From Candidatus Bathyarchaeota archaeon (lineage in GTDB: Archaea; Thermoproteota; Bathyarchaeia; Bathyarchaeales; Bathycorpusculaceae), in the NCBI GenBank assembly GCA_029881805.1, contig JAOULW010000002.1:62001-126000 (forward strand): 64,000 bases of DNA, read 5' to 3'. Of the stretch, positions 22,568-29,216 are shown one piece after another. The stretch's first letter is position 1. Each line of letters begins with the position of its first letter. Made by a program: the position numbers and the translations under genes. The notes beneath the pieces were generated by a model that did not search any database, was not told the DNA's origin, and was given only the letters and a program-made list of their open reading frames with translations.

Positions 22568-23500
22568 TTAAGTTATTTCTAAAGCTTCTTTCAAAAAAGT
22601 CTTGTATGGACCTAGTTTTCCGCCGTAGTTGCCAGCGGAAATCCTGACAACACCTGACACGCTTGTGGCTGCTCTTAGCCCCTCTTTCATAGCTTTTTTC
22701 ACGGCTTCGACGGTCAAGCCGTTTATGACAATTTCGTAAACGCAGTTGACGTTTGCCGGTAGTTGCGAATCTGGCGTAACCGTTTTCAATCCTGGGCAAA
22801 AAGGATGATTTGTTGATGCTCTAAGTTTATATTTTAGGGAGCCGGCCTTTGAGCCAGAGCGGCAAATTCCTCCTGGGAAGGGTAAAATGACCTCGCTCGC
22901 CCTAGTTTTGATGGCGCTGGTTGCTTCTTCAGCTGCTTTAAGCCCGGAAGTTTTGTCTTTGGCTAGGATCAGGAAATTTCCGCCAGCTATTGCTTCTGCT
23001 GCGCCAAAAGCGTCTTCTACAATGAAGTCGCCTTCCATCACGGGGATTTTCCAAACCTTTCTGTTACCGACTATTCCCTTTCTTTGGAATCCATCACCAA
23101 ACAGTCGTATGCTCCTGCCAACCTTTAGTCTTCTTTTGGCGTTATACATGGCATCGAAGGCTGAAGCCGTTGGACATGTCATTATGCATTGCCCTATGCG
23201 CAGTATCAACTGATTTTTCAATTCAAATCTGTTACGATTATATATCTGGATCAGAACGCCTACACGGTTGTCTGGAGTTTTGTCTGCTGGCACGATACCT
23301 TCTATGCCGGCTTCTGCAGGCGACATTATTACGCTTGTTGCATAACCAGTTGCGACGGCTGCTGCAGTTAAAGCCCATTTCTCATTGTCAGCTGTAATCA
23401 ACACACGGCCAGCCCATAGACGGAACATTTCGGCGAAAGTGTCCATAATCTCGCAAGTGTTTCCGTTGTCAGCCTTATACGTGAATGTTTTTTCGCTCAT
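22568..23500 (-). CDS. ftr: Formylmethanofuran--tetrahydromethanopterin formyltransferase
   Basis: Transfers a formyl group between formylmethanofuran and tetrahydromethanopterin, the second step of the methyl branch of the archaeal Wood-Ljungdahl pathway. The 310 residues are close to the family length of about 297. Visible are TFAEMFRLWAGRVLITA near residue 20-36, GIQ-type repeats around IRLFGDGFQRKG, the FIVEDAFG segment, and GGICRSGSKAGSLKYK near 205-220, as in Methanopyrus Ftr. It is divergent from mtd, with 238 bp between the start codons that could hold a shared control region. Confidence 0.96.
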   Translation of the reverse strand: MSEKTFTYKADNGNTCEIMDTFAEMFRLWAGRVLITADNEKWALTAAAVATGYATSVIMSPAEAGIEGIVPADKTPDNRVGVLIQIYNRNRFELKNQLILRIGQCIMTCPTASAFDAMYNAKRRLKVGRSIRLFGDGFQRKGIVGNRKVWKIPVMEGDFIVEDAFGAAEAIAGGNFLILAKDKTSGLKAAEEATSAIKTRASEVILPFPGGICRSGSKAGSLKYKLRASTNHPFCPGLKTVTPDSQLPANVNCVYEIVINGLTVEAVKKAMKEGLRAATSVSGVVRISAGNYGGKLGPYKTFLKEALEIT

Positions 23501-23738
23501 TTAGTCATCTTCCCTTGTCTAGACTTTATTATACAAACTGCAAAATAGCTTTAAATTCTTTGGCATTCACCGGTGTTCTATTAGCATAAATTACCCCTTA
23601 GACTTCGTTTCAACTCCAAAAAGGAGAAAGGAGGGTGCTTTCTCTTAATGTCGCTTCACTTGTGTTGAATCTACTTTGTGAAATCCTTATAAACATCATT
23701 TTCTAAATACGGCTTCTAGTTTCTATTTGGTGGTTTCC

Positions 23739-24614
23739 TTGGAAAAGATCAAGATTGGCATTGTTAAATGTGGGAACATAGGTACCGCCCCTCTCCTTGA
23801 ACTTCTTTTGGATGAATTGGCCGATAGGGAAGACATCAGTGTACGCTGTGTAACAACAGGATCGAAAATGGTTGCCGAAGATGTTGAAGATGCTTTAGCA
23901 AAGATTTTTGATTATAATCCTTACTTTTTGATATTTATCTCTCCAAATCCTGCTGTTCAAGGGCCTACAAGAGCCAGAGAGATACTTCTAGAGAAAAGAA
24001 TTCCCAGTATTTTCATATCAGATGCTCCTGGAAAACGTCTTAAGGAAGAATTTGAGAAGCACGGTTTTGGTTACGTCATAATCATGGGCGACCCGCTTAT
24101 TGGAGCCCGAAAGGAATTTTTAGACCCCACTGAAATGGCTATTTTCAATTCCAATATCATCAAGGTGCTGGCAATCACAGGCGTTTATCGCATGGTGTAT
24201 CAAGAGATTGATAGGCTTATACACGGCTACAAAGGGGGGCTGAGCCCGGAACTGCCAAAGCTAGTGATAGATACTGAGAACATCAGGGATCAATCAGACT
24301 TCAGAAACCCATATGCTAAGGTGAAAGCTATGGCAGCCTACGAACTGACCAAGAGAATCGCCGAAGTTAATGCACGAGCTTGTTTTGTGGAGAAAGAAAA
24401 GGAAAAATATATCCCTCTCGTTGCGTGTGCCCACGAAATCGCTCAAGCAGCTGCAGATTTGGCCGAGGAAGCAAGAGAAATCGAAAAGTATGCCGATACT
24501 TTAGTCAGAAGGCCACATGCAAAGGATGGTAGACCAAAAATCAAAGACAAGTTGATGCTTCCTCCAGCTTTTGATGAGGAAAGCTATCAAGAATGGCTTA
24601 AAACCGCTAAGTAA
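23739..24614 (+). CDS. mtd: F420-dependent methylenetetrahydromethanopterin dehydrogenase
   Basis: Reversibly reduces methenyl- to methylene-H4MPT with reduced F420. The protein of about 291 residues begins EKIKIGIVKCGNIGTAPLLEL, matching Mtd, and contains FISPNPAVQGPTRARE and FIVIMGDP-like (YVIIMGDPLIGARKEFLDP) segments. TTG 23739 is chosen because GGTGG at 23729-23733 is well spaced; TTG 23727 and GTG 23730 are alternatives. A C-terminal RPHAKDGRP segment matches the family end. It is followed 163 bp later by an NAD(P)-type MtdB-like gene, giving two enzymes for the same step. Confidence 0.95.
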   Translation: MEKIKIGIVKCGNIGTAPLLELLLDELADREDISVRCVTTGSKMVAEDVEDALAKIFDYNPYFLIFISPNPAVQGPTRAREILLEKRIPSIFISDAPGKRLKEEFEKHGFGYVIIMGDPLIGARKEFLDPTEMAIFNSNIIKVLAITGVYRMVYQEIDRLIHGYKGGLSPELPKLVIDTENIRDQSDFRNPYAKVKAMAAYELTKRIAEVNARACFVEKEKEKYIPLVACAHEIAQAAADLAEEAREIEKYADTLVRRPHAKDGRPKIKDKLMLPPAFDEESYQEWLKTAK

Positions 24615-24624
24615 ATCAAAGAAA

Positions 24625-24777
24625 TTGGAAGAAGATTAGTCTATTTCTTGGGAACGGCGATTGCCAACAAAAATGGCATGGTGAATCAAGTGTATATACT
24701 CCACTAATGCGTATATATGATATTTCGAATAGGTATATATGTTTTGCAGAAGTTCGTGTATCTGAGGGTGGTAAAAA
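24625..24777. promoter_or_regulatory. TATATA-rich upstream region of mtdB-like gene
   Basis: Three related words, GTGTATATAC (about 24689), GCGTATATATG (about 24709) and GGTATATATG (about 24731), are spaced about 20 bases apart before the TTG start at 24778. They could be TATA boxes or repeated operator half-sites. A similar ATATATAC...TATATATCGTATAC cluster lies upstream of the AbrB-PhoU gene (about 27570-27592). Confidence 0.35.
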
Positions 24778-26514
24778 TTGAAATCGTTGGAAATTGCTCC
24801 GTTAGAAGGAAAAATTTTGAAGGTTATAATTGTTGAGAAAGAATACAATGAACCTTTCTGGGTTATAGAACCCCAAAACAATGGTTCACCTAAAAACATG
24901 CTATCCTCACTGTTTAGGCCATCAATTGCCTTCTGCAACTTTCTTGAGAAGCTTATAGATGAAACTAATCCTGACTTCGCAACGGAAGAGCAAGGAAACC
25001 GTTCTGTAGCCAAGTTCAAAGAGAACAATGCTCTCGTCCAAATCTTCCAAAAGAAGGGCATTTCTCTCTTCCTAGTTGATGTTGACGAAAACGCCAGAGG
25101 CTATTTGTTCTCCTCCTTAGAAGAGAAGAAGCAACTGAGAGACAGCGTAGTTCAGGCGCTAGAGGAATTATCGTCCAAGAAAAGTGACGCAAGGAGCATG
25201 GAAGAAGAGTACTTGGTAGCTTACGGTCAATGCTTGCAACAAGAGCTTGAAGAAGCGGAACGTGAGATAAAGTTCTCAGTCCGAGAAAGCTGGATCGCTA
25301 TGGAGATTTTGGAAAATGCCAGAAAACTCGAAAAAGAAGAGGTAACATGCCTCCATATATCCAGTCCAGAACACATAAGTGGCGTCAAAAAACTGCTAGA
25401 AGCAATAGATGTTGAAGTGGAGACGATTCAGCCTACAAAAAAGTTGCTTTTTACCAACAAGAAGGCGCCTCCAGAAGGGCTTGTGGATCTTCTGAGGTCC
25501 ATGCAGATTCAAGTTAAACCAGCAATAAAAAGGACAGCGGAAGAAGCGCCAAGTATACTTTTTTTCTTGGACACGGGCAGAAGAGCAAGTCCTTTTGACA
25601 TTTGCATGGCGTATGACGCTGGATTTAGCGTTGTTATACCATACGAAAACGTGACCGTTGACGACAGTAAGAGAATAGTTCAGGACGCCATATTTTCCAG
25701 AGATGCAAAAGGGATCAAGCGTACTTGTTTTTTCATTGGTGGGAAAGACATGGAGAAAGCTGAAGAGGTCTTAAAGATCGCACGCGATTCGATGTTTCCA
25801 CCGTTTGAGACTGCCGCAATAATCGATCCCGGCGGAGCATATACTACTGCTGCTGCTATGATCGCAAAGGTCGAGGACGCTTTGGCGCGTTCTAAGTTGG
25901 GAAACATGAGAGACAAACGGTGTGCAATTTTCGGAACAGGTGCTATCGGAAGGGTTGTAGCTATTCTCTCGGCACGACTTGGGTGCGATGTCGTGATTGT
26001 GAGCCCGAATCCAGAGCGGTCGAACGGGGAAGAATATATCGCGAACCTGACGAATTCGCTTCGTAATAAATATGGAGTGAGTGTAGAAGGAGTCTTTGCT
26101 CCAACACTAAAAAAGAGGATTGAAGTTGTAGAGAAGGCTGATGTAATCTTCTGCGCCTCTGTGGCTGGCGTTAGGATAATTAGTAAAGAGATGTTGAGCG
26201 AGACAAAACTTGCTAAGGTCATGGCTGACGTAAATGCTGTTCCGCCACTGGGAGTGGAAGGAATGAAGCTTGAGGATGACATGAGAGAAATAGTTCCCGG
26301 AATCTTCGGCATAGGCGCTTTGACAATCGGTAGGTTGAAATACAAACTCGAAAGAGAAATTCTTAAAGAAGCACGAAGAAATGGCAAAGGCGTGGTATAC
26401 AACTACAATCATGCGTTTAAATTAGCGAGAAAAATCTTGAAAGGAGAAATATCAGCCGTTAAACTTGCGGTAACCGTAAACTATCCCTCCAAGGAACGGA
26501 AGAATCCTAGTTGA
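24778..26514 (+). CDS. MtdB-like NAD(P)-dependent methylene-H4MPT dehydrogenase with extra N-terminal domain
   Basis: A 578-residue protein in two parts. Residues about 257-578 match bacterial MtdB: RRASPFDICMAYDAGF, VVIPYENVTVDD, VQDAIFSR, SMFPPFETAAIIDPGGAYTTA, and a Rossmann motif GTGAIGRVVA at 386-395. Known MtdB is about 300 residues and uses NAD(P). The N-terminal 250 residues are unrecognised: a beta-rich start, a long charged helix at about 110-175 and a CLHISSPEHISGVKKLLEAI segment at 191-210. The start is TTG 24778, with GGGTGGT 6-7 bases upstream. It sits beside mtd and ftr, so a role in C1 oxidation or reduction is very likely. Confidence 0.82.
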   Translation: MKSLEIAPLEGKILKVIIVEKEYNEPFWVIEPQNNGSPKNMLSSLFRPSIAFCNFLEKLIDETNPDFATEEQGNRSVAKFKENNALVQIFQKKGISLFLVDVDENARGYLFSSLEEKKQLRDSVVQALEELSSKKSDARSMEEEYLVAYGQCLQQELEEAEREIKFSVRESWIAMEILENARKLEKEEVTCLHISSPEHISGVKKLLEAIDVEVETIQPTKKLLFTNKKAPPEGLVDLLRSMQIQVKPAIKRTAEEAPSILFFLDTGRRASPFDICMAYDAGFSVVIPYENVTVDDSKRIVQDAIFSRDAKGIKRTCFFIGGKDMEKAEEVLKIARDSMFPPFETAAIIDPGGAYTTAAAMIAKVEDALARSKLGNMRDKRCAIFGTGAIGRVVAILSARLGCDVVIVSPNPERSNGEEYIANLTNSLRNKYGVSVEGVFAPTLKKRIEVVEKADVIFCASVAGVRIISKEMLSETKLAKVMADVNAVPPLGVEGMKLEDDMREIVPGIFGIGALTIGRLKYKLEREILKEARRNGKGVVYNYNHAFKLARKILKGEISAVKLAVTVNYPSKERKNPS

Positions 26515-26515
26515 A

Positions 26516-27529
26516 TCAAGATGGCTTATAGGAGCGATTAATAGTAATCTCTGCGATGTCAGCTGCATATTCTGCTATCCGTTGTATACTATCCCGTATG
26601 GAACAGCAAGCACATATGACTTCCGTGCTTTTCTCTTTTGAGAAAGCTAAAGATGCTATCTCCTGATCCAATTTCTCTATTCGGATTTGATCTTCAATGG
26701 TTTCATCGGAACGCTTAACATCGCTCGTGAGTAGGGCGCTTACGGCCTTGTCATACGAAGCGAGAGCATCACAACCAGTAGCGTACATTTTTTCCAAAAG
26801 AATCTTGGAAACTTTCTTAAGCCTTCCTTCAAGCATTATGATGTGCTTTGCTGTATTGGCTGCTTGGTCTGCAACCTGTTCTATACGGTGGACGAGAGTT
26901 TGATAATCGAGGCAGTCGATGGGTTCAAGGTCAAGCTGATTGGCTAAAGCTGGATCGACAACTGCCCTGCGGACTAGCCGCAAAAGGAAGAATGAAAAAT
27001 GGTCCACCTCATCGTCGAGAGTGTAAACAGCTTTTGCAAGAGCTGAATCCTGATTTTTAAGGGCTGCAAAGGCGTCACGGCACATGGAGCTGGAAATCTT
27101 GTACATCCTGCTGATTCCTGCTTGTATGGAGGCTTTGGATTCGTCTATAAGAGTTGCAATTTGAATTTCTTTTGTGTCGGCTTCCATAATGCGCATGTAA
27201 AGCATTCGAACAATGTTGCGGATGGCTTTTTGTTGAGGAACTGTGAAAAATTTCTTTGAGACCAATTTTATGTTTGAGTAGCCGTTTAGATAACAAGCGA
27301 TTATGCTGCGAACCACGAAGATGTTTCTTTCTTCTGGTCCTACGTGAAGAGTTATTTTGCTTGTTTCTCTTTCCTTCCTTGCACCTGGGAAAACGGCCAA
27401 GGAACGGTCACGGTTTATAGCCATTGAAACAGCATCTCCTTGTTTTAGCTCATTTAGTTGTGTCCAATGCTTTGGAAGAGAAATAACAAGAGATGAACGC
27501 CCCAACGACATAATCTTTCGCTGTTCCAT
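26516..27529 (-). CDS. AbrB-PhoU family regulator
   Basis: A 337-residue protein with an N-terminal SpoVT/AbrB-type DNA-binding domain (RKIMSLGRSSLVISLPKHW, then LKQGDAVSM) and two C-terminal PhoU helical repeats containing paired acidic/hydrophobic segments (LDDEVDHFSFFLLRLV; RDSIQRIAEYAADIAE). Such fusions are archaeal phosphate-uptake or phosphate-signalling regulators. ATG 27529 has GGGTGA 7 bases upstream; ATGs at 27544 and 27547 are alternatives. No Pst transporter genes are nearby. It is convergent with the MtdB-like gene, the stops lying next to each other. Confidence 0.85.
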   Translation of the reverse strand: MEQRKIMSLGRSSLVISLPKHWTQLNELKQGDAVSMAINRDRSLAVFPGARKERETSKITLHVGPEERNIFVVRSIIACYLNGYSNIKLVSKKFFTVPQQKAIRNIVRMLYMRIMEADTKEIQIATLIDESKASIQAGISRMYKISSSMCRDAFAALKNQDSALAKAVYTLDDEVDHFSFFLLRLVRRAVVDPALANQLDLEPIDCLDYQTLVHRIEQVADQAANTAKHIIMLEGRLKKVSKILLEKMYATGCDALASYDKAVSALLTSDVKRSDETIEDQIRIEKLDQEIASLAFSKEKSTEVICACCSIRDSIQRIAEYAADIAEITINRSYKPS

Positions 27530-27694
27530 ACAATCTTCACCCATCATTGTATTAACACAGAAGATAGAAATATATACTTTTATATATCGTATACCCCATC
27601 AAAATGTGCGGCGCATGGAGGATTAAGTTTCATTTGCTCAAGGTTTCGAATGATTTAAATATTGACTGAGTATTTATGGGTCTATCAATGATTA

Positions 27695-28004: not shown

Positions 28005-29216
28005 ATGAGTGGCGTTAAGAACCTTTTGGTGGTTGGAATTGATGTGGTTTCTATTGCCAATTCAGCAAAAGAGGCTGGTTACAAAATTTATGCAGCAGAT
28101 TATTTTGGTGATATGGACCTTCGTCGTGTTTGCGATGGATATGTATCTATAATTGAACAGAAACCTGGAAAAAGCTGTGGAAGAATAGAAGTAGAATTCA
28201 AGCCAGAGGCTTTTATCGAAATGGCAAGGTTTTTTCTGGAACAATATGAAATAGACGCGATATTACTTTCTTCCGGCTTAGATGACTATTTCGATATTCT
28301 TAGTAAGTTGAACAATATGGTTTCAATATTGGGTAACTCTCCAAAAATCATCAGAAGAGTTCGTGAAAAGCTAGGATTTTTTGAGCAACTTGACCGTTTA
28401 GGAATACAACATCCAAAAACAGCAATTGTGAAAGATTCTGTTGAAGCAAAGGCTGTATCCATGGATATAGGGTATCCAGTTGTGTTGAAACCTGCCAGAG
28501 GTTTTGGAGGGTTAGGGTCAAGGATGGTACGGAGTTCTAGGGAAATGGAAGAAACATTTTTTGAGGTTTCTTCGGCTGGCGAAGGGGTCTTAATTCAAGA
28601 GTACATTGATGGTGTCCATGCGAGCGTATCTTTTCTTGCTGCAAATGGAAATCTTCAAGTTCTATCGATAAATGAACAATTGTTAGGACTGCTTTCCGTT
28701 TCTCAGCGGGAAGCCTTCGGATATTGTGGCAACATTGTTCCTTTACGTCTTGCAGGGCCAATTTTTGAGAAATGCAATGATATCGCTGAGAAAATTGCTT
28801 TACATTTTGGTCTTAAAGGTTCAAACGGTATTGACTTGGTGATTTCTAAAAATAGTGTGCCCTATGTGATGGAAGTAAATCCACGATTTCAAGGGACTCT
28901 AGAATGTGTGGAAGAAGTTATGCGGATAAATTTAGTGGAATCACACATCAACTCGTGTGTACGTGGTTCTCTGCCAACTATAAAAGAAAAAGCATCAATC
29001 TTCTCCACTAGGTTAATCCTATATGCCAATAAACGTGTCACGGCTCCTGATCTAACCGTTTTTCAAGAAGTCAGGGATGTTCCACTCCCAGAGACTATTA
29101 TCGAAAAAGGAGAACCTTTATGCTCAGTTATCACCAAAGGAAACAGTAGAGACTCTTCTCTCCAAAAGGCTAAAAAACTTGCCAAATCGATCTATGACCT
29201 GATTCGTCCAGTTTAA
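28005..29216 (+). CDS. ATP-grasp carboligase-like protein
   Basis: A 403-residue protein of the ATP-grasp superfamily, which joins a carboxylate to an amine or thiol via an acylphosphate. Visible are an N-terminal Rossmann-like LVVGIDVVSIANSA, LGNSPKIIRRVREK, the ATP-binding GYPVVLKPARGFGGLGSRMV near 165-184, VLIQEYIDGVHASVS, and the metal-binding YVMEVNPRFQGTLE near 288-301. It fits the COG2232 type (biotin-carboxylase-related), members of which cluster with tetrahydromethanopterin C1 genes in methylotrophs. A cofactor-modification role is therefore an inference. Confidence 0.85.
   Translation: MSGVKNLLVVGIDVVSIANSAKEAGYKIYAADYFGDMDLRRVCDGYVSIIEQKPGKSCGRIEVEFKPEAFIEMARFFLEQYEIDAILLSSGLDDYFDILSKLNNMVSILGNSPKIIRRVREKLGFFEQLDRLGIQHPKTAIVKDSVEAKAVSMDIGYPVVLKPARGFGGLGSRMVRSSREMEETFFEVSSAGEGVLIQEYIDGVHASVSFLAANGNLQVLSINEQLLGLLSVSQREAFGYCGNIVPLRLAGPIFEKCNDIAEKIALHFGLKGSNGIDLVISKNSVPYVMEVNPRFQGTLECVEEVMRINLVESHINSCVRGSLPTIKEKASIFSTRLILYANKRVTAPDLTVFQEVRDVPLPETIIEKGEPLCSVITKGNSRDSSLQKAKKLAKSIYDLIRPV

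Follow-up and report, generated by a model that had tools for sequence, protein, structure and literature searches.

Gene content of the locus

The window, by which we mean the whole stretch of 64,000 nucleotides that was analysed, carries a two-domain fused C1 enzyme encoded by a deep-branching archaeon. The gene lies between genes of tetrahydromethanopterin (H4MPT)-linked C1 metabolism and a gene for a MazE/AbrB-PhoU-like protein, and the features are as follows.

22568..23500, minus strand: ftr, formylmethanofuran:H4MPT formyltransferase (PF01913/PF02741; TIGR03119 over cut-off), divergent from mtd
23727..24614, plus strand: mtd, F420-dependent methylene-H4MPT dehydrogenase (PF01993, 384 bits, E 4e-115; NF002162 over cut-off)
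24700-24745, upstream of GAGGGTGGT and the fused gene: two TATA-like GTATATATG repeats, read from the sequence
24764..24772, plus strand: putative SD-like GAGGGTGGT, 5 nt upstream of the TTG, read from the sequence
24778..26514, plus strand: fused gene, N-terminal TraB/TIKI-like domain and MtdA/MtdB-type dehydrogenase (578 aa, a length shared by some 40 homologues)
24778..25530, plus strand: N-terminal domain, residues 1-251 (alignment, AlphaFold2 model and profile link to TraB)
25546..26457, plus strand: MtdA/MtdB-type dehydrogenase domain, residues 257-560 (Pfam Mpt_N, MtdA structures and shared residues)
26516..27547, minus strand: gene for the MazE/AbrB-PhoU-like protein (PF01895), tail-to-tail with the fused gene

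The reading frame of 578 codons is intact within the window and begins with TTG, a start supported by homologues of the fused protein, which align from the identical start Met. The GTATATATG repeats indicate that the fused gene may have its own promoter, apart from that of mtd. The first-pass annotation, made from the letters of the window and their translations, had named Mtd and Ftr as neighbours, and the profile matches listed above bear this out. Both in the window and in most loci of the family (f1), mtd lies immediately upstream of the fused gene on the same strand. Across nearly all homologous loci (L031-L066, L063, L064 and L068) the MazE/AbrB-PhoU-like gene and the fused gene stand tail-to-tail, and in Jordarchaeia the former keeps this place though mtd is elsewhere; it may belong to the fused-gene unit. 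In two Jordarchaeia loci (L107 and L108) ftr and mtd diverge as they do in the window, and the fused gene is elsewhere. An ATP-grasp ligase gene (28005-29216) lies two genes downstream of the fused gene, and bacterial plasmid genes of the mtdB type also often precede an ATP-grasp gene.

The C-terminal half as a probable methylene-H4MPT dehydrogenase

An MtdB-like dehydrogenase behind an unrecognised N-terminal half of about 250 residues had been proposed for this gene, and this architecture was recovered. Pfam Mpt_N (PF09176) matches residues 272-351 with 98.6 bits against a cut-off of 27, and residues 259-560 align with the solved MtdA structures (6tlk, 6tge and 1lu9) at E values of about 1e-34 in a PDB sequence search. 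Non-C1 dehydrogenases score about 100 bits below MtdA in the PDB search with this half, and by these scores, as well as by a C-domain tree that took in C1 homologues only, the C-terminal half groups with C1 dehydrogenases and not with other Rossmann enzymes; clustering with non-C1 dehydrogenases was one outcome that the first-pass annotation had named as speaking against its reading. The narrower assignment of residues 257-578 to MtdB stood in part: the domain is of the MtdA/MtdB type, but MtdA is the closest relative by solved structures, and in the tree the protein falls into an archaeal clade of its own that is neither MtdA nor MtdB-type.

The family hallmarks are intact. The Rossmann GTGxxG motif is kept at residues 386-391, and Lys521 of the fused protein corresponds to MtdA Lys256, which we take to be the catalytic residue. 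Altogether 34 positions, Lys256 included, have the MtdA residue in 97% or more of the archaeal forms, both long (fused) and short. Because these positions are kept, the same chemistry as in MtdA is argued for, and the C-terminal half is probably an NADP-type methylene-H4MPT dehydrogenase, both the activity and the NADP preference being predictions from conserved residues. MtdA Arg152 and Lys156, presumably the NADP-phosphate residues, are replaced in the fused protein by S-x-N-P-x-R, which closes beta-2, the second Rossmann strand, where no acidic residue is found in Bathyarchaeia. Such an acid-free strand end with S-x-N-P-x-R suggests NADP as the cofactor. The Jordarchaeia proteins (L063, L064 and L068) have Glu in place of this pattern at the cofactor site, which would point to NAD and hints at a switch towards it.

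Three groups of known enzymes resemble the C-terminal half. MtdA of Methylorubrum extorquens (NADP-dependent methylene-H4MPT/H4F dehydrogenase; 1lu9, 6tge and 6tlk) is homologous over the full length of residues 259-560 and shares Lys256 and the other conserved residues, but has no counterpart of the N-terminal 250 residues, and the fused protein sits in a separate, long-branched clade. Proteins annotated as bacterial NAD(P)-dependent methylene-H4MPT dehydrogenases (MtdB type) are 34-40% identical over the C-domain, but are single-domain enzymes of a separate clade whose genes cluster with those for beta-RFAP synthase, ATP-grasp proteins or mch. The short MtdB-like enzymes of Bathyarchaeia come from the same archaeal class and are 35-44% identical over the C-domain; they differ in having no N-domain, in forming a separate clade and in occurring in genomes without Mtd. 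Bathyarchaeia from termite guts have been reported to possess a methylene-H4MPT dehydrogenase akin to the NADH-dependent one known from methylotrophs (PMC7886697), and an archaeal NAD(P)-type enzyme for this step is already known and not new. For the fused form, no report was found in the open-licence literature.

Some residues, among them Cys276, Ser307, Cys403 and Met502, are invariant in the long clade and set it apart from the short one. Together with the fact that fused forms accompany Mtd while short forms stand alone, these residues could mean that the C-terminal half has drifted to a substrate other than methylene-H4MPT, the association with Mtd then reflecting release from the ancestral role once Mtd does the step. 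The retention of the 34 positions in both long and short forms, Lys256 among them, makes such a drift improbable in our judgement.

A remote TraB/TIKI-like domain at the N-terminus

Residues 1-253 had no meaningful Pfam match across 35 homologues and no sequence match in PDB; weak Pfam matches to WTAP, ELP1, RdRP and glutaredoxin were dismissed because they were inconsistent from member to member. With no significant Pfam or PDB match by sequence or fold, the N-terminal half did not turn out to be a known C1 enzyme domain, the other outcome that the first-pass annotation had envisaged as counting against it. An AlphaFold2 model computed with 35 homologues gave a confident alpha/beta domain (pLDDT 86), in which the long helix noticed earlier appears as two (residues 104-133 and 141-182), followed by a strand-helix unit that bears CLHISSPEH. 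This segment, singled out earlier as well, is a conserved motif among the homologues (consensus CLHICSPEH) and contributes His193, Ser196, Pro197 and His199. In a 19-row alignment Glu20, Glu22, Tyr23, Glu71, Arg75, Arg169 and Ser196-Pro197 are invariant, and His193 and His199 are nearly so among the homologues.

The lead to a superfamily came from profiles. A profile of the N-domain matched one Bathyarchaeia protein (E 0.115) at the same place as the Pfam TraB match. Profile-profile comparison by hhalign gave a probability of 70% against Bathyarchaeia TraB proteins and of 12% against a wider TraB set, the latter with a second, colinear but non-significant match at the Glu motif. The N-domain/TraB profile score was 38.6 against a shuffled mean of 14.4, with 0 of 400 column shuffles as high, and TraB was the best of 22 real families (21 others from the same loci), the next scoring 20.9. 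PF01963 (TraB) was absent among the Pfam matches listed for the 35 N-domains, with none in G000, and the model had no PDB or viral-model fold match below E 0.001, with an order of elements compatible with the TIKI fold.

TIKI enzymes are hydrolases whose site comprises two His and two Glu (2His/2Glu) and a basic residue (PMC6254334). Counterparts occur in matching order in the N-domain, namely an N-terminal Glu, Glu71 for the second Glu, Arg169 and His199 for the last His, and the helix R-E-S-W-I-A-M-E-I-L resembles R-D-E-Y-M-A-N-N-I-L of TraB. The domain thus resembles the TraB/PrgY/GumN family (PF01963) and the TIKI/ChaN/Ere superfamily in profile at the last His motif, in a weak colinear match at the second Glu motif, in a compatible helix and strand order and in the Arg ahead of the last-His strand; it differs in falling below every Pfam threshold, in having no significant PDB fold match and in missing the first His, where Glu22/Tyr23 stand (Glu-Lys-Glu-Tyr), so that the 2His/2Glu set is incomplete. 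The N-domain is probably a remote, non-canonical relative of the superfamily and, with Glu22/Tyr23 in place of the first His, we term it TraB/TIKI-like rather than a member.

This kinship raises the possibility that the N-domain has a catalytic activity of its own, as a TIKI-like hydrolase or by modifying a ligand, towards some compound related to pterins or to F420, and is merely fused to the dehydrogenase. The polar set of Glu20, Glu22, Tyr23, Glu71, Arg75, Arg169, Ser196-Pro197, His193 and His199 does resemble an active or binding site, and the TIKI relatives are hydrolases. We nevertheless consider it unlikely: the first catalytic His is replaced and the site incomplete, Mch, Mtd and Ftr are present and therefore no known C1 step is missing, and neither the 151 relatives nor the 398-genome sample showed the domain on its own.

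Distribution and phylogeny of the fused form

Homologues with both domains turned up in about 40 genomes of Bathyarchaeia and also in Jordarchaeia. No N-domain was found alone or in other fusions in the 151 relatives or the 398-genome phylum sample; a weak match in G198 was a chance match to a glycosyltransferase-like ORF. Some apparent exceptions to the fusion lie at contig ends (G045 and G142) or at 100-N runs resembling scaffold gaps (G118 and G127). Genome G075, of isolate DVMM_5, carries the fused gene twice, on separate contigs (L058 and L059), and one copy adjoins mtd.

In the C-domain tree the fused forms make up one clade (97/93); short archaeal forms, MtdA and the NAD(P)-dependent enzymes of bacteria all branch outside it. 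The fused forms of Jordarchaeia (Asgard; L063 and L064) nest within the Bathyarchaeia clade, which suggests acquisition of the fused gene by transfer. L067, without an N-domain, sits inside the fused-form clade, a position that suggests loss of the domain.

The N-domain accompanies Mtd

Across the 151 genomes, Mtd was present in 35 of the 38 with an N-domain but in only 3 of the 69 that have an MtdA/B-like gene and in which the N-domain was not detected (Fisher's exact test, 3e-21, a value that counts related genomes as independent). Strong as it is, the association reflects a small number of independent events, since the lineages are related and the long forms belong to a single clade. Among the three Mtd-positive genomes without a detected N-domain, G118 has an N run at the expected site of the domain, and in G025 Mtd runs straight into the C-domain. 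The G025 fusion is a 603-aa ORF (L065:2400-4208, the same as L020 and L079) in which Mtd, minus its last residues, continues as the MtdB-like domain without an intervening N-domain; it stands on a single MAG contig with a broken phoU adjoining and could have arisen artificially, by misassembly or deletion. G138 likewise has no N-domain, and its Mtd is in two pieces. All three Jordarchaeia genomes with the fusion have Mtd. G125 and G148 carry C-domains of the long-clade type (53% identical to that of the window) without the N-domain, in genomes without Mtd. Some fused genes are far from mtd, and G022, G080 and G150 keep the N-domain with no mtd detected.

That the N-domain is kept almost only alongside Mtd points to a partnership of the two enzymes, and on the strength of this association the domain may regulate or couple the dehydrogenase, as the first-pass annotation had supposed. 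An extension that only stabilises or oligomerises the enzyme, with shared ancestry producing the association, would accord with the few independent evolutionary events and with the three fused genes lacking a detected mtd. We find this doubtful, as the strongly conserved residues are polar ones and not just those of the core, and G125 and G148, long-clade members in genomes without Mtd, are without the domain.

FolD combines dehydrogenase and cyclohydrolase in one enzyme, and by analogy the N-domain might replace methenyl-H4MPT cyclohydrolase in a FolD-like bifunctional protein. Mch, though, is present in the genome of the window and in 131 of 151 relatives, those with the fused form included, and we rejected this reading as having next to no probability.

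No recognisable F420:NADP oxidoreductase (Fno, TIGR01915) was found in the N-domain genomes tested. Just two of 61 genomes scored above the cut-off of this model, and these have the short form and no Mtd. Most Bathyarchaeia are without Fno whatever their MtdB type, so its absence is general in the class and not specific to the fused form, which weakens a specific link between the two. The source of F420H2 has been called unclear (PMC7886697).

A possible link between F420 and NADP

The earlier proposal that this archaeon can pass methylene-H4MPT electrons to either F420 or NAD(P), here predicted to run to F420 through Mtd and to NADP through the fused enzyme, gains support from the intact family hallmarks and the gene content. 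The two-domain architecture, the conserved family residues, the conservation of the fusion, the association with Mtd and the lack of a recognised Fno are directly supported. The reading we prefer, and hold tentatively at somewhat less than even confidence, is that an NADP-type dehydrogenase with a non-canonical TraB/TIKI-like N-domain acts with Mtd to equilibrate the F420 and NADP(H) pools, the N-domain coupling or gating the reaction. The two dehydrogenases, Mtd using F420 and the fused enzyme using NADP, would run on one methenyl/methylene-H4MPT pair, and electrons would pass between the two carriers by way of methylene-H4MPT, a presumed transhydrogenation that could equilibrate both pools where no F420:NADP oxidoreductase is recognisable. 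Speaking against this reading are the small number of independent events, the fused genes that are distant from mtd or have none detected in their genome, the general lack of Fno in Bathyarchaeia and the possible separate promoter. The N-domain would most likely dock to Mtd or bind a ligand, and thereby couple or gate the NADP reaction; it is the natural candidate because two adjacent dehydrogenases need coordination and the domain is retained where Mtd is. A more specific version makes the N-domain a coupling module of a new kind that attaches to Mtd, the complex an H4MPT-linked F420H2:NADP+ transhydrogenase passing substrate between sites, and the G025 fusion a natural shortcut of the same complex; this seems to us possible though somewhat unlikely.

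Beyond the first-pass annotation, the fused form is widespread with a clade of its own, its N-domain has a remote TraB/TIKI kinship, and the N-domain tracks Mtd. An unrecognised domain of TraB/TIKI type would thereby be added to central C1 metabolism. For the electron flow among F420, NADP and the Wood-Ljungdahl pathway in Bathyarchaeia, archaea that abound in anoxic sediments, a conserved fusion found almost only beside Mtd is a concrete candidate for the missing link between F420 and NADP.
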